A stretch of 58,719 bases of DNA. It comes from Bacteroidaceae bacterium. Lineage in GTDB: Bacteria > Bacteroidota > Bacteroidia > Bacteroidales > Bacteroidaceae. Position numbers and translations under genes: made by a program. Under the pieces are notes generated by a model. It worked only from the letters and a program-made list of their open reading frames with translations, was not told where the DNA came from and did not search any database. Below, piece after piece: positions 37,139 to 44,041 of the stretch. How positions within the stretch are numbered: position 1 is the stretch's first letter; every line of letters begins with the position of its first letter. Location: the NCBI GenBank assembly GCA_017628845.1, contig JAGBYI010000098.1, positions 1-58,719 of the forward strand. The letters run 5' to 3'.

Positions 37139-40100
37139 TCACTTAATTACAACCTTTTTGCCGTTCACGATGTTGACACCCTTTACAGGGGCAGAGAGAC
37201 GGCGGCCGCTCAGGTCATAGATTTCTGTTTCCACAATGCCGTTTTCCGTTTCCACAATGCCGGTGGCATTGTTCTGCTCCAACGTGAAAGCGAGAGAAGA
37301 ACCGCCGTCGGTGGCGGCCTGGGTTGTTACCCAATAGCCTAACTTGCTGTTGACATCGTTCAGGTAGCCAAGGCTATTGGCCGTGTTGCGCAACACCAGA
37401 ACGCCGCTGTTGTTCTCCAAGACAAATGTGGGGGCAGAGGCAAGGTCTACTGCCGAAACAAGGGCATTATTGGAAACTGCACCACCCACAGCCTTGCCCT
37501 CGCCAAGAGCAAGATTCTGGATCTTGTAGCCAACATAGGGGTTGCCCACGAAGGCAAACAGGGCCTTGTCGCCACTGGGCTTTGCGGTGGCACAGGGGAA
37601 CTGCTTTGCGGAGGCATCGTAACTGATGTACTTGTTGCCACGGATGGTGAGGGAGTACCACACACCTTCATCAAAAGATGCAGAAGGCAGGAAGGGTATG
37701 TCCTCGCTCAGCGTACATGTGATAACAAAGTTCTTGCCGGCATCTTCGGCACTTGCCTTACCCTCTGGAGCACCGCTGGTCTCTACGTAGGCAGGGGTCT
37801 GAACAGGAGGGAATGCTTCGCCCACATAGGCAACTTCCTTCTGCTCGTACCACACGTTGTTGCCGCACATATATGTATAGGTGATGTCCAATGGGGTGGC
37901 ATCGGTGGGCTGTGCATCGCCTACGATACGCACGTACTTGCCATTGGTTATTTCGGATATGCTCAGCGATACGTACACCATGGAGTAGCCGCCGGGGGTC
38001 TCCTCGTAGAAGAAACCAATGCGGCCGTCGTTCTGCAGGGTGAAGGTGCTGTAGGCAGAACCTGTCTGTGTGGTGCTCACCACCATGCCCTTCTGCCAGC
38101 CGTTGGCAAAGGTTGCCACGTCGTTCTTGCCAGCCTTCTGGTAACTGGTGGGGCTGGTGATGTCCTTGTAGTAGAAACCTACGTTGCGGCGCACGTCGCC
38201 AGAATATTCATTCAGACCGAGGGGCAGGGACTGAAGTACGATGTTGCAGAGGTTGCCGTCAGCATCCTCCACCTGATAGGTTGTAATCTCACCGTTGGTA
38301 CCGTTCCAGTCGCTGGGTGCAGGGATGTTGCTATTGGTGCCTGTGCCCCAAGAGCCTTGTCCCTTCTCTATGTCGGAATATGTGAAGATGTTGTAGTAAC
38401 GGCCATGGGGCTTGCGTGCAGACATGATGACGTCGCCGTTGGGCAGTTCCTCGCACTTGGGTTCGTTGGCATTGCCAAAGTCGGGGAAGGGCATATCCTG
38501 ACGGGTGCCCAGGATGTGCCATGTCATACCGAAGTCATCGGAGTATGCCACACGGTTGTGCATGTCCTTGCTCCACAGGGCTGCATAGATACGATAGTAC
38601 TCGCCCACCTTGATCTTGGAACTCTGGAAGATACGGCCAGAACCAATGAAGAAACTCTGTGCCGTGTACTGGTCGGTACTGGTCTTGTCGCCTGCCTTGT
38701 ATGCCTCGGTGTCCCAAAGGGAGTAGAACTCCTCGGTAATATCGTCATATATGGAGTCACGGCCTTCGGTCATACTGTGGTAAGTCTCGCCACCGTCCTC
38801 GCTGTAGAAGCGTGCCATACGGTTGGGGTTCTGGCGTGTGGCGCTGCCGCATACGGTATGACCCGTTACAGCCATAAGCAGCACACGACCTGTCTCGCGG
38901 TCGATACAGATGGCAGGATCGCCAAAGCCGTCATTGCCGTTCCATGAGTCTCTTTCGTTACCAGTAATGATGGTGGTGCCCTTCTCCCACTTTGTGCCGT
39001 CGGGAGAGCCGATGCGCTGAACCAGGTCCACACGACCGAAACCTATATCGCCACCACAGGGACGATAGTCGTTGATGGCCAGCAGTTTGCCGTCCTTGCG
39101 CTTGGCAATGGCGGGGATACGGTATGGGGGATTGTTGTGATACCAGAGGTACTGGTACTCGCTCTCCATATCACCGGCAAAGGTAACCGTGGTACCTTCC
39201 TCGGTCTCCTCCACGCTGCCCTTCCAACCATGATATGTCCATGTGCTCATGCTCACCTTCTGGCCATAGGGCAGGTACATTTTCTTCTTCTGTCCGTCCA
39301 GTTCCTTGGTAACGGTGGTGGTGGAGGTGGTACTGCCGTAGGTCATACGGAACTCGCCGATGCGGGTGTTTGTCTCGGGATACTTAGTCTCGCCGGTTAC
39401 GGCAAAGGCAATGTTCACGGGGTCGGGATTGATACGGCTGATGGTCCAGCGCGAACCGGCATCGGTGATGCCGTAGAACTTCAGGTCGCCACCATTGCCG
39501 CCATACATATTCAGCGACTGTCCGCTAGACACTTTGGTGGTAATACCTATGCCAGGCTTGCTCTCGGCCTGATTCTGGCTCATGTCCAAGAACCACTTGG
39601 CGGCTGTGCCGGTGGTCCATGAAGCCACGGTACCGTTGCCGGGAGAGGTGCTGGCGGTGAGTTTGTACTGCTCGCCCAGAGTCTTGCTATAGATAACGAA
39701 GCCATCGGTGTTGTTGCCCACAAAGCAGAACAGCTGGTTCTCCTGGCTCATGTCCATCTGTGCTGTACCTGCCTTGCTGGCAGAGGGTGCACTCCAGGCA
39801 TAGTTGGCATTGTTGCAGTTGCTCAGGCGCAGCCACTTCTCGCCATAGGTAGCAGAGAAGATGGGAGGCAGGGCGTTAGGGTCTGCCACGTTCACCTTGA
39901 AATAGGGCAGCCAAGTCTTCTCGCCACCACCGGCACCCACCCCAGGACCGTAGTTGCCACTTGCATTGGAAATGGCAATGCGCTGGCCGCAGGATGCTAC
40001 GCTGGTGTTAGAGGTGGAAAAGAACATGTAGTATGTCTTGCCTGCCTGCAGGGTGATATTCTCGAACTTGTACTCCACGAACTGGTTGTTCTGGGGTGCA

Positions 40101-40396
40101 GGCTTGTTGGTGGAAATGCCCACCTTGCCGCTGATGTCCTTTGTAGAGGAGATAACCATGTAGGCGGTCTTCTCGTTAGTACCGTTTGTGTTGGTGCACA
40201 GGTGGATGTTGTTCAGAGGAACCTCGGTCACAGCATCGCCTTCGTCGTTCACTTCGGGAACGGTGAAGCCAATCCATGTGATGTTGGCCTTGTCGTTTGC
40301 GCCGGTGCCAACGGACCACGAGGTGTTCACTTCCTGCGCCCAGGTCGCTACCACACCGCAAAGCATGGCAACGAGGAGGAGATAAAACTTCTTCAT
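37139..40396 (-). CDS. Exo-alpha-sialidase (GH33) with type IX-like C-terminus
   Basis: This 1085-aa protein has signal MKKFYLLLVAMLCGVVATWA. A ~400-residue N-terminal beta-rich region precedes the propeller. The sialidase core starts PPYRIPAIAKRKDGKLLAIN (first Arg of the triad, then Asp region GGDIGFG), with Asp-boxes YSEDGGETYHSM and YSDDFGMTWHIL, Glu region NEPKCEELPNGD and GFFYEE for the Tyr-Glu pair. After it lie further beta domains and a final IYDLSGRRLSAPVKG...KVVIK tail, like Prevotella type IX secretion C-termini. It would release terminal sialic acid from host glycans. GIVETEN is tandemly duplicated just before the tail. Confidence 0.9.
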   Translation of the reverse strand: MKKFYLLLVAMLCGVVATWAQEVNTSWSVGTGANDKANITWIGFTVPEVNDEGDAVTEVPLNNIHLCTNTNGTNEKTAYMVISSTKDISGKVGISTNKPAPQNNQFVEYKFENITLQAGKTYYMFFSTSNTSVASCGQRIAISNASGNYGPGVGAGGGEKTWLPYFKVNVADPNALPPIFSATYGEKWLRLSNCNNANYAWSAPSASKAGTAQMDMSQENQLFCFVGNNTDGFVIYSKTLGEQYKLTASTSPGNGTVASWTTGTAAKWFLDMSQNQAESKPGIGITTKVSSGQSLNMYGGNGGDLKFYGITDAGSRWTISRINPDPVNIAFAVTGETKYPETNTRIGEFRMTYGSTTSTTTVTKELDGQKKKMYLPYGQKVSMSTWTYHGWKGSVEETEEGTTVTFAGDMESEYQYLWYHNNPPYRIPAIAKRKDGKLLAINDYRPCGGDIGFGRVDLVQRIGSPDGTKWEKGTTIITGNERDSWNGNDGFGDPAICIDRETGRVLLMAVTGHTVCGSATRQNPNRMARFYSEDGGETYHSMTEGRDSIYDDITEEFYSLWDTEAYKAGDKTSTDQYTAQSFFIGSGRIFQSSKIKVGEYYRIYAALWSKDMHNRVAYSDDFGMTWHILGTRQDMPFPDFGNANEPKCEELPNGDVIMSARKPHGRYYNIFTYSDIEKGQGSWGTGTNSNIPAPSDWNGTNGEITTYQVEDADGNLCNIVLQSLPLGLNEYSGDVRRNVGFYYKDITSPTSYQKAGKNDVATFANGWQKGMVVSTTQTGSAYSTFTLQNDGRIGFFYEETPGGYSMVYVSLSISEITNGKYVRIVGDAQPTDATPLDITYTYMCGNNVWYEQKEVAYVGEAFPPVQTPAYVETSGAPEGKASAEDAGKNFVITCTLSEDIPFLPSASFDEGVWYSLTIRGNKYISYDASAKQFPCATAKPSGDKALFAFVGNPYVGYKIQNLALGEGKAVGGAVSNNALVSAVDLASAPTFVLENNSGVLVLRNTANSLGYLNDVNSKLGYWVTTQAATDGGSSLAFTLEQNNATGIVETENGIVETEIYDLSGRRLSAPVKGVNIVNGKKVVIK

Positions 40397-40460: not shown

Positions 40461-40577
40461 TAAATAATATGCAAAGGCGCAAAGGAAAGCGTGCATATTA
40501 TTATAAAAACAAGGGGACGGGCAAGGTGTGTTATATATATTTAACGTCGTGCGCATTGCACTTTAGGCATTTATTCG

Positions 40578-40585
40578 TAACTTTG
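40578..40585 (+). promoter_or_regulatory. Plus-strand promoter facing the structured repeat region
   Basis: TAACTTTG with TTG at 40556-40558 exactly 19 bp upstream, a full consensus. The next plus-strand gene starts 859 bp further on, so the promoter drives either the sulfatase with a long leader or a noncoding transcript. Confidence 0.55.
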
Positions 40586-40635
40586 TCAAGCAAACACCGT
40601 TAGAGAACGGAAAACGAAACGAAAAGGAAGGCGAA

Positions 40636-40662
40636 GACGATGACGATGACGATGACGATGAC
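40636..40662. repeat. GATGAC hexanucleotide microsatellite
   Basis: About four and a half perfect GATGAC units abut the left end of the 287-bp family B element. Confidence 0.85.
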
Positions 40663-40703
40663 TATCCACCCCCTCCGCTTCGCTCGTCTCTTCGAGCCCC
40701 GAC

Positions 40704-40774
40704 GTTAAACTGGGGAGTTTAACCCTCATAAGGCACAAAATGACATTGAGTCATTTTTCTAAAGGCCTTATTCG
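40704..40774 (+). other. Structured module M1
   Basis: Order: hairpin GTTAAACT-GGGG-AGTTTAAC; linker CCTCA; stem TAAGGC; ACA; hairpin AAATGAC-ATTGA-GTCATTT; TTCTAAAG; closing stem GCCTTA; TTCG. Every stem is perfect. The linkers are identical to those of M2. Confidence 0.7.
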
Positions 40775-40830
40775 CCCTGTCTCAGGGGGACAGTCAGTTA
40801 CTACTGGCTAACGCTATCACCCTGCCCAGC

Positions 40831-40902
40831 GTCGCACTGAGAGAGTGCGACCCTCAGAGGGTACAGAAGCAGATTTACTGCTTCTTCTAAAGACCCTCTT
40901 CG
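40831..40902 (+). other. Structured module M2
   Basis: Order: hairpin GTCGCACT-GAGAG-AGTGCGAC; linker CCTCA; stem GAGGGT; ACA; hairpin GAAGCAG-ATTTA-CTGCTTC; TTCTAAAG; closing stem ACCCTC; TTCG. Stem lengths equal those of M1 (8, 6 and 7 bp) but the stem sequences are different. Confidence 0.7.
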
Positions 40903-41183
40903 CCCCCTGAGACAGGGGCGAGTACCCCGTAGGGGGGAGGGGGTGGATAAACCCTCTGCGCCCTCTTGTCGTAACGAAGTTTGCGACCCCTCCAGCGCCA
41001 GCGTGAAAAACGAAAGAGAATAAATCTCTGCGCTCTTTGCGGTCTCTGCGTGCAAAAATATCTCTCACGCAAAGGACGCAAAGGACGCAGAGTTACAAAG
41101 CAAACTGCGCTGCCGCTGAAGTAGTCGCTGGCTACGCGCGACAGAGAACGCAGAGACAAAACGATGAACGATTAACGATGAAC

Positions 41184-41230
41184 TATCCACCCCCTCCGCG
41201 CTTCGCGCTCGTCCCACCTGTCTCAGGGGG
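41184..41230. repeat. Family B half-element
   Basis: TATCCACCCCCTCC followed by a CGCGCTTCGCGCTCG palindrome and CTGTCTCAGGGGGAC, then the similarity stops. The surrounding 40950-41183 stretch has AAGGACGCAAAGGACGCAGAG-type short repeats and no gene. Confidence 0.65.
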
Positions 41231-41299
41231 ACAAAATAAACGAAAAGGTAAAAACGATGAGCGGATGAGCGGTGAGCGAAAAACGTAAACACCCAACAG

Positions 41300-41405
41300 T
41301 AGGGACGCATGCGTCCGCAAACAGCGTTTTAAGATAATCTGGATGCTGAACCTCCCCACTCGCGAAACACTCCATCTTTTGCCAATTCGGACGCATGCGT
41401 CCCTA
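41300..41405. repeat. Family A element 5, short-core variant
   Basis: Both arms have the minimal core GCATGC (TAGGGACGCATGCGTCCG and CGGACGCATGCGTCCCTA), separated by a ~70-bp spacer. It ends 38 bp upstream of the sulfatase start. Confidence 0.85.
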
Positions 41406-41443
41406 CATTTACGACTCTAACAATTAACACTTTACCCCCCCTT

Positions 41444-44041
41444 ATGAGAAACCTGAACAAAGCATTGCTTCCCCTTGCCACACTGCCTGGCGCTCTCTTT
41501 GCCCAGGAGGCAACACAAAATCCTGGCTATCAGCCCAACTCAAGCCAGGCACGTCCCAACGTGGTGATGATATATGCCGACGACCTGGGCTTTGGCGACC
41601 TTGGGTGCTATGGTGCCAAGGGGGTGAAGACACCCAACGTGGACAAACTGGCACAGAACGGCCTGCGCTTTACCAACGCTCATGCCGTGGCATCCACAAG
41701 TACTCCCTCGCGCTATGCGTTGCTTACCGGCCAGTACCCGTTCCGAAAACAGGGTACAGACGTGGCTGCCGGCGATGCTGCCATGATTATCTCGCCCGAC
41801 CAATATACCGTGGCGGATGTTTTCAAAGAGGCCGGATACACCACGGCTGCCTTTGGCAAATGGCACTTGGGACTGGGAGCACAGACGGGCAAGCAGGACT
41901 GGAACAAGCCCATCTCCCCTGCCCTGCCCAACATAGGGTTCGACTACTCGTACATCATGGCGGCCACAGCCGACCGTGTGCCTTGCGTGTTCATAGAGAA
42001 CAGCACCGTGGCAAACTACGACCCCACGGCACCTATATATGTGAACTACAACAAGAACTTCGAGGGCGAGCCTACGGGGCGCGACAACCCGGAGTTGCTC
42101 TACAACCTGAAGAGTTCGCACGGACACGACAACTCCATCGTAAACGGTATCGGGCGCATAGGCTATATGAAGGGTGGCGGCAAGGCTCTGTGGAAGGACG
42201 AGAACATTGCCGACAGCATCACCTCTCATGCCGTAGACTTCATAAAGGAGAACAGCAACGAGCCTTTCTTCATGTACTTTGCCACCAACGACGTACATGT
42301 GCCCCGTTTCCCACACCCCCGATTCCGTGGCAGCAGCGAGATGGGATTACGTGGCGATGCCATAGTGCAGTTCGACTGGAGCGTGGGCGAGATAGTGCGC
42401 ACCCTGGAGGAACAGGGGTTGCTGGAGAACACCATCATCATACTTACCAGCGACAACGGTCCCGTGCTGGACGACGGCTATCAGGACCAGGCAGAGGAAC
42501 TGGTGGGCGAGCACTCCCCCACAGGCGGCTTGCGCGGCGGCAAGTACAGTGCCTTCGAGGGCGGTACTCGTGTGCCCTTCATAGTTCACTGGCCTGCTGA
42601 AATCCGTGAGGCAGGAACAAGGGATGCCCTGCTCTCGCAGATTGACTTCCTTGATGTTATGGCAAGCGTTGTGGGCGTTGGCAAGGGCAAGGCTCTATCT
42701 CCTGACGGACAGCCCGGGCAGGAAGCAACATGGTTCGGTGCCGAGGGCGACGGACGCGACTATGCCATAGGCATGGCTCAGAACCATACCCTAACAATAC
42801 GCACTCCCAAATGGAAGTTCATTGAGCCAAAGGGTGGAGCCACAATGATACCTTGGGGGCCGAAGATAGAGACGGGCTATTCCACCTCGCCACAACTGTT
42901 CCAGAGAGTGAACGGCGAGTATGACGAGACCGTGAACAAGGCCACCGAATACAAGTCCGTGTGCGACAGCATCAGCATGGAACTGGAAAGAATACGCCTG
43001 TCCTCCTCAAGCAATTCCATATTTCATGGTGCCTACCATATAAAATACAACGGCAAACCCGTATTCATAGGCTACAACACCACTCACGACCGCCACGGTA
43101 GCGAGGGGTTCAAAATCATCTCCCCCGACCACTACACGAGCACATCTGCCGGCGACGAGGTGGTAATAGTACGTCCGTCCGGGCTGGGGAATACCATATC
43201 CATGCAGGGCAAGTTCCTGCGCGAACCCCGACTTTCGCAATGGGGGCATATCATGTTCTCCGACAATGAGTCCGAGGCTGGCAAATACCTGATTGAGGAG
43301 ACTTCTACGGAAGACGTATATAAGATACGAAGCACCAGCGAGGGCATAAACTATGTCAACATCTATACGGAGCATGGCGTGGCTGGCAATGACAAGGCGG
43401 AGAAAGCAGGACTTGCCTCGTACACCATCGAGGAACTGACCTCCTTTCCCGTCACTATTCCGGCAGGAAACATGGCTGGTATCTGCATGCCTTTCAACGT
43501 AATAGTACCGGAAGGAACCTGTGCCTATGACGCTACCGCCGAGGGCATGAAGTTCAATGCCGATAACGGCACATATACCTGCACACTGACACCGATAGCC
43601 GTTTCCGGCGAAACACTGAAAGGTGGTACTCCTGCCATCATAAACGGGGAGCAGGGGTATTACACCCTGACCATCACTATGAAGGACGATAATGCCAAGG
43701 GGGCGCACGAGCAGTCATTGCTCAAAGGCAACTACGTGACAGAGAAACTCAGCCAGAACGGAGATGCGACAAAATACCTGCTTGCCATGCAGGACGGCAC
43801 ACCGGCATTTGAAACCTTTAGCGGCACTACCGACATTGCCGCCAACCAGTGCTGGATGGAGTGCACCATGACGGATGCCGACAGATTCACTATCAGCCTG
43901 CCCATATCCACAGGCATACAGAACACCCTTGCAGGAACACAGGGCAAGGAACGCCACATCTACAACATTGCCGGCCAACGCCTGAACGCTCCCCAACAAG
44001 GCATCAACATAGTGGAGGGCAAGAAATTAGTCGTAGAATAA
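41444..44041 (+). CDS. Ser-type sulfatase (S1 family) with accessory domain and type IX-like tail
   Basis: This 865-aa protein has signal MRNLNKALLPLATLPGALFA. The sulfatase domain (residues ~38-500) begins RPNVVMIYADDLGFGDLGCY with metal-binding Asp residues. The maturation motif is S86-T-P-S-R90, so a serine rather than cysteine would be converted to formylglycine by an anSME-type enzyme, not seen here. GKWHLG and LTSDNGPV are conserved. Residues ~550-830 form beta-rich accessory domains, and the end HIYNIAGQRLNAPQQG...LVVE resembles the sialidase tail. Likely desulfates host or plant glycans. Confidence 0.9.
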   Translation: MRNLNKALLPLATLPGALFAQEATQNPGYQPNSSQARPNVVMIYADDLGFGDLGCYGAKGVKTPNVDKLAQNGLRFTNAHAVASTSTPSRYALLTGQYPFRKQGTDVAAGDAAMIISPDQYTVADVFKEAGYTTAAFGKWHLGLGAQTGKQDWNKPISPALPNIGFDYSYIMAATADRVPCVFIENSTVANYDPTAPIYVNYNKNFEGEPTGRDNPELLYNLKSSHGHDNSIVNGIGRIGYMKGGGKALWKDENIADSITSHAVDFIKENSNEPFFMYFATNDVHVPRFPHPRFRGSSEMGLRGDAIVQFDWSVGEIVRTLEEQGLLENTIIILTSDNGPVLDDGYQDQAEELVGEHSPTGGLRGGKYSAFEGGTRVPFIVHWPAEIREAGTRDALLSQIDFLDVMASVVGVGKGKALSPDGQPGQEATWFGAEGDGRDYAIGMAQNHTLTIRTPKWKFIEPKGGATMIPWGPKIETGYSTSPQLFQRVNGEYDETVNKATEYKSVCDSISMELERIRLSSSSNSIFHGAYHIKYNGKPVFIGYNTTHDRHGSEGFKIISPDHYTSTSAGDEVVIVRPSGLGNTISMQGKFLREPRLSQWGHIMFSDNESEAGKYLIEETSTEDVYKIRSTSEGINYVNIYTEHGVAGNDKAEKAGLASYTIEELTSFPVTIPAGNMAGICMPFNVIVPEGTCAYDATAEGMKFNADNGTYTCTLTPIAVSGETLKGGTPAIINGEQGYYTLTITMKDDNAKGAHEQSLLKGNYVTEKLSQNGDATKYLLAMQDGTPAFETFSGTTDIAANQCWMECTMTDADRFTISLPISTGIQNTLAGTQGKERHIYNIAGQRLNAPQQGINIVEGKKLVVE

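Follow-up and report, generated by a model that had tools for sequence, protein, structure and literature searches.

A three-helix module dispersed in Bacteroidales, probably the structured core of non-autonomous palindromic DNA repeats

The locus and the fold of its two modules

The window, i.e., the whole stretch of 58,719 nucleotides of Bacteroidaceae DNA analyzed here, harbors a family B element between two divergent genes (37139-40396 on the minus strand and 41444-44041 on the plus strand), which give a BNR-repeat match (weak, below the cut-off) and a sulfatase. The element is bounded by terminal inverted repeats (TIRs) and holds two modules, M1 and M2 (Table 1). When positions 40662-40951 are folded as single-stranded DNA (ssDNA), one branched structure closed by the TIRs is obtained (z -9.75). 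As the preliminary description had proposed, with coordinates that proved right, M1 and M2 have a common three-helix fold, in which the linkers CCTCA, ACA, TTCTAAAG and TTCG are identical, while the stems differ and are nevertheless paired. The plus strands fold as ssDNA at -14.6 kcal/mol (M1, z -4.1) and -20.5 kcal/mol (M2, z -6.4), and none of 200 shuffles is equally good. The 8-bp first hairpin (P1) is correct for M1 and M2, but as a general feature of the module it did not hold and is a variant, because its second pair is unformed in 20 of 35 copies of one alignment (A1, see below) and in 60 of 75 copies of another (A4); these copies have about 5-6 bp paired, and GTC and TCC are left unpaired. 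CGTC precedes the first hairpin in most module copies. In a distant genus, which belongs to another family, the module has a longer P2 and, at the site of TCTAAAG in the window's form, an additional hairpin.

B elements of the window's genome measure 122-130 bp without a module (L206-L213), 199 bp (L216) or 211 bp (L217) with one, and 283 bp with two (L220, the element of the window), and otherwise similar B arms occur both with and without the module. Both M1 and M2 are followed immediately 3' by a CCCTG...CAGGG hairpin, yet on opposite arms of the element. The TA found outside most B copies could be either a part of the TIR or a target-site duplication (L213 and L214 deviate).

Table 1. Positions of the features in the window and of RAYT-like proteins at other loci
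Feature	Position	Strand	Remark
Family B element, 283 bp, holding M1 and M2	40665-40947	+	TIR pair TCCACCCCCTCC / GGAGGGGGTGGA; TA directly outside both ends
Left TIR, TCCACCCCCTCC	40665-40676	+	
Module M1	40704-40774	+	match to covariance model R1 at 40700-40779, 96.2 bits
M1 parts, 5' to 3'	P1 40704-40711/40716-40723; CCTCA; P2 40729-40734/40765-40770; ACA; P3 40738-40744/40750-40756; TTCTAAAG; TTCG	+	
C-rich hairpin CCCTGTCTCAGGG, directly 3' of M1	40775-40787	+	hairpins enriched at that position
Module M2	40831-40902	+	match to covariance model R1 at 40827-40907, 95.5 bits
M2 parts, 5' to 3'	P1 40831-40838/40844-40851; CCTCA; P2 40857-40862/40893-40898; ACA; P3 40866-40872/40878-40884; TTCTAAAG; TTCG	+	
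C-rich hairpin CCCCTGAGACAGGGG, directly 3' of M2	40904-40918	+	hairpins enriched at that position
Small hairpin CCCC-GTA-GGGG, right arm of the B element	40925-40935	+	read from sequence
Right TIR	40936-40947	-	
GTAGGGACG inverted pair	41299-41316 and 41389-41406		
Further GTAGGGACG pairs (starts)	26707/26764, 36931/36996, 37061/37125, 44162/44218, 45263/45376, 50953/51019		
RAYT-like Y1 proteins	L232:776-1777, L235:816-1832, L237:564-1769, L133:2977-4239		

Copies of the module and covariation of its stems

A pattern of the linkers, with the stems left free and up to three mismatches allowed, is found at 28 places in the window's genome, as against none for the reversed control pattern. The exact linker pattern occurs in 21 stretches from named metagenome-assembled genomes of ruminant-hindgut Bacteroidaceae and has no match in viral contigs; plasmids gave no module match and phages one short match, which is confined to the 5' flank and does not touch a module. 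With a covariance model built from 35 module copies, at least 41 matches were obtained in the window's genome (2.67 Mb, 84.6% complete) from the 150 of 944 candidates that were scored, 39 of them at E<1e-10 and two weak. In a sample of the family, 37 of 301 genomes match, the window's own included, and these fall into 7 of 30 genera; at least two copies are present in 26 of the 37, as counted from the best 15 matches per genome. A second model, applied to a sample of the order (copies counted from the best 11 matches per genome), retrieved the own genome and three of 392 others, all from one genus of another family, and in this distant family 6 of 8 genomes match, again in one genus, with 9-17 copies each. 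In a sample of the phylum, the own genome alone matches (1 of 395). The large genome searches were run with stricter filters, at which weak matches are lost. The distribution of the module is patchy and mostly multi-copy.

Compensated stem changes had been claimed from M1 and M2, and two copies alone are thin evidence, yet the claim holds across 75 distinct copies from many genomes. The two findings that had been set beforehand to count against it were a lack of other copies and stem changes without compensation; the search returned other copies, and their stem changes are compensated. In alignment A1, which comprises 35 copies found by their linkers and not by their stems, 89.1% of cells pair, two-sided changes occur at 16 of 23 pairs, and 130 cells are changed on both sides; these copies come from 39 pattern-found stretches, of which four with irregular stems are omitted (L038, L044 at 4684, L051 and L057). 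Alignment A4 contains 75 distinct copies from 71 loci and is biased towards structure, because the covariance model both chose and aligned the copies; 85.7% of its cells pair, two-sided changes occur at 22 of 23 pairs, and 393 cells are changed on both sides. The paired percentage of A4 is reached by none of 500 shuffles and falls to 35-45% when the partner is slid by 1-3 columns. Among its helices, P3 is paired in 95.5% of cells, P1 in 79.1% and P2 in 81.9%, the latter two being less distinct in divergent copies, and of the three helices RNAalifold recovers P1 and P3 but not P2. In 34 distinct cores found by their linkers, the 13 stem pairs of P2/P3 are formed in 92.5% of cases, compared with a mean of 72.1% when the 3' arms are swapped between cores (maximum of 500 swaps, 77.8%).

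When changes are counted by parsimony along a tree built from the 75 copies, those at 15 well-aligned pairs (column pair 39/94 being excluded as misaligned) comprise 75 that are two-sided, 7 via G.T, 5 via A.C and 13 others; for all 23 pairs the counts are 105, 19, 36 and 46, respectively. The module stems change in a nearly pure Watson-Crick, near strand-symmetric manner, while the unpaired linkers stay fixed.

Insertion contexts and candidate enzymes

The tie to family B that had been suggested for the module does not hold, because several kinds of palindromic repeat carry it. In the window's genome, its carriers include B elements (TCCACCCCCTCC...GGAGGGGGTGGA), which are mostly flanked by TA, as well as A elements (GGACCCTCCCC...GGGGAGGGGTCC), and copies also stand at the feet of GTAG-type repeats; others follow tRNA genes or lie within protein genes. 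A hairpin commonly occupies the first 3' position, where 74% of 105 distinct flanks fold at -5 kcal/mol or better, as against 20-31% in comparison windows further downstream and 26-36% upstream (computed with RNA energy parameters and with the distant genus left out; copies that are related do not count as independent). Around the module, locus-specific inverted arms are no longer than expected from the flanks of other sites (mean 6.27 vs 6.24; 5.45 after shuffling). In the distant genus, a tRNA gene precedes the module by at most about 300 bp in 5 of 20 loci scanned. Modules stand behind tRNA-Lys or tRNA-Arg genes at L177, L178, L188, L227 and L228, and at the three of these that were read (L177, L178 and L188) the 3' end of the local tRNA is repeated behind a module.

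An open reading frame of at least 80 aa, as called by a simple ORF caller, overlaps 30 of 136 module sites, and several of the 16 that were translated are long and open through the module, in either orientation (e.g., L078, L079, L109 and L122). In a protein alignment, 12 same-genus relatives of the L078 gene are without a comparable insert at a variable linker, and since this linker is too variable, ortholog comparison did not yield the exact junction. The same insert of about 33 bases is present in the P3 loop of two own-genome copies (L250 and L251), and a different one in the P3 loop of a copy from another genome (L166:10806-10916), so that the loop itself can be a target. Partial second copies, consisting of P2/P3 only, stand in tandem behind full modules at L135:1514-1554, L133:2747-2787, L158:8120-8160 and L164:8532-8572.

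Six neighboring genes are, by eye, what we take to be BT4734-type primase genes, and three of them (L109, L111 and L115) may share one old insertion. An association with such genes was rejected, as BT4734-like_N matches 4 of 117 neighboring proteins and the other families are mixed (among the first 25); the neighbor scan covers part of the sites, with the own genome and a near relative excluded, and its protein set (A6) comprises 117 of 120 proteins, three being omitted for their length. The Pfam family Y1_Tnp has no match in the window's genome, and a Y1 transposase partner sought via Pfam alone was likewise rejected, with matches in 14 of 39 chosen module-bearing genomes and in 8 of 18 that lack modules. 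Divergent RAYT-like Y1 proteins of about 335-400 aa do exist (Table 1); they contain HUH and Y---NP motifs plus, at the C-terminus, an extra domain that by eye we presume to be DprA-like, and none of the three that were scanned reaches the cut-off of REP_Tyr_transpos in NCBIfam.

RAYT-like proteins are present in 23 of 37 module-bearing family genomes and in 69 of 264 others (Fisher p 3e-5), one module lies 233 bp upstream of a RAYT-like gene (L133, the single adjacency seen), and a few sites have modules within or at the foot of GTAG repeats, all of which would suit a REPIN-type element that is moved by RAYT-like Y1 transposases with the C-terminal extra domain. We nevertheless regard this explanation as doubtful. 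A RAYT-like match at E<=1e-8 is missing in 14 of the 37 module genomes, the window's genome has only a weak one (7e-10), and within the window's genus the co-occurrence amounts to 12 of 15 vs 3 of 7 (p 0.14), so that kinship may account for it. Furthermore, none of the best 30 RAYT-like loci carries a module at E<=0.01, nor do 7 further RAYT-like stretches, which are partly the same genes. The window also contains GTAGGGACG repeats at 18 sites, 14 of which form seven inverted pairs (Table 1) that look like classical GTAG-tagged REPINs, and these GTAG repeats are a more natural partner of a RAYT-like enzyme than the module. An enzyme that mobilizes the module thus did not emerge from the Y1_Tnp and RAYT-like searches.

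The level of the covariation and the nature of the element

The covariation could, in principle, be a mutational by-product, with replication template switching perfecting imperfect palindromes and no selection on the fold. The changes are nearly strand-symmetric; moreover, one-sided intermediates are few, as could also result from arm-to-arm copying during replication, hence covariation need not mean selection. However, from one element family or genome to another the stems change but the unpaired linkers are kept, a pattern that arm copying alone would not produce, which makes this explanation unlikely.

RNA is expected to tolerate G.U, but not A.C. In the module helices, G.T is rare and hardly above A.C (7 and 5 of 1124 cells, or 20 vs 7 when the column pair regarded as misaligned is included). 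The helices of A1 have 5 G.T vs 12 A.C in 700 cells, and P2/P3 of the 34 distinct cores have 3 G.T and 24 A.C in 442 cells, most A.C being at one P2 position. As a control, 13 distinct tRNAs of the same loci have 19 G.T and no A.C in 273 cells; the p-values for module against tRNAs (0.005 for G.T against A.C, 3e-9 for G.T against Watson-Crick) are no more than indicative, given the small number of tRNAs and the lack of independence between cells. Where both neighboring genes run in the same direction, the module lies in sense 30 times and in antisense 22 times, a bias that is not significant (p 0.33). Of 100 non-overlapping sites, 66 have an upstream gene that points at the module, mainly owing to an excess of convergent gaps (26, vs 8 divergent), a pattern that is also compatible with a 3'-end RNA element. 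No replication-strand bias is seen in 78 sites (44 on one side by local GC skew, a proxy on draft contigs), which counts against insertion of the IS200/IS605 type, as this predicts a lagging-strand bias.

The earlier statement that the module is not a recognized riboswitch or tRNA agrees with the Rfam searches, in which no family reaches its threshold at a module: at family thresholds, the sole match in the window is a tRNA; nothing falls on the modules within 40500-41300 at E<=5; and in the 20 of 29 divergent loci that were covered, no module is matched at threshold. The family whalefall-1 overlaps the modules of L093 on the opposite strand, at E 0.13 and 22.9 bits vs a threshold of 37. A FopS paralogous sRNA (RF04319) is located at L100:858-923, about 580 bp from a module.

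A structured RNA (sRNA, 3'-end cis-element or ribozyme) that is dispersed by repeats incidentally would be in line with the conserved unpaired linkers, the fold kept over 75 distinct copies, the plus-strand RNA folding (z -2.3 for M1 and -5.1 for M2) and the orientation of upstream genes, but it is quite improbable given that G.T hardly exceeds A.C, that sense and antisense sites are similar in number, that 11 of the 16 translated overlapping ORFs are antisense to the module, that Rfam has no match at threshold and that the minus strand folds about as well (z -2.6 and -4.4). The preliminary description had allowed for either a folded RNA or an ssDNA substrate of a transposase; the ssDNA half of this is now favored, and the RNA half is disfavored by the G.T and A.C counts and by the sense and antisense numbers. 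Near strand symmetry, the lack of a significant sense bias and insertions within open protein genes together argue for a DNA-level element over an RNA gene.

In the parts of the open-licence literature that were searched, no published description of the module was found. By description, it resembles REP/BIME, MITEs and Rickettsia palindromic elements. REP hairpins are reported to undergo compensatory changes (PMC3116915), and insertions of REP/BIME to keep the reading frame (PMC6006769). Judged by those accounts, REP/BIME/REPIN have dispersed palindromic units, compensatory hairpin changes, mosaics and frame-keeping insertions in common with the module, but the latter is about 70-80 nt long, has three helices and fixed internal linkers, and no RAYT flanks it (30 loci); the GTAG foot of REPIN/RAYT systems is absent from the module alignments, and only some sites adjoin a separate GTAG repeat. 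CGTC-tagged REPs, which are described as multi-copy and without a known transposase, are defined by CGTC, a stem of 8-9 bp beginning with A-T and a CCA tail (PMC3733652). The module shares with them, as so described, the CGTC before the first hairpin (in most copies) and the multi-copy state, but its first stem mostly has about 5-6 bp and does not start with A-T, a CCA tail is missing, and P2/P3 are additional. Rickettsia palindromic elements are repeats of about 150 bp that are reported in-frame inside unrelated genes (PMC10969869), and the ORFs that stay open through the module correspond to this, although the module belongs to another phylum and is likened by description. For Bacteroidetes, TnpA-REP subclass 2.6 is reported to have atypical secondary structures, with copies elsewhere in the genome (PMC6006769); both features, as given there, are in common with the module, again by description. 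The carriers A and B, finally, have TIRs and lack the length to encode a transposase, as is the case for MITEs, whereas the module itself is without TIR ends and occurs in several contexts, and a parent transposon was not found.

Taken together, the fold is real, conserved and dispersed, and it most likely belongs to a non-autonomous palindromic DNA element of the REP/BIME/MITE/Rickettsia palindromic element kind with an unusually complex core. We consider it probable that the module forms the structured core of a non-autonomous family of palindromic DNA repeats that are dispersed in Bacteroidales genomes. The working form of such a core would be DNA in a single-stranded or extruded state, whose three helices would expose the fixed linkers to a protein that acts by cutting, joining or copying it, as in REP/RAYT or attC-type hairpin recombination; the candidate enzyme would act in trans and may prefer the feet of hairpins as targets. 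More tentatively, the module could represent a previously undescribed class of ssDNA element, i.e., a branched DNA of three or four hairpins with fixed single-stranded motifs and its own putative processing enzyme, which would insert into other hairpins (of repeats or tRNA 3' ends), at the foot or in the loop, and thus ride on many palindromes.

A fold that is kept across genera by near Watson-Crick, near strand-symmetric change offers a clean test of covariation at the DNA vs the RNA level, and it is a warning for searches for RNA motifs, as dispersed DNA repeats can mimic structured RNAs. If it is true that an enzyme recognizes branched ssDNA, this would give ssDNA-processing transposases a target of a new format.
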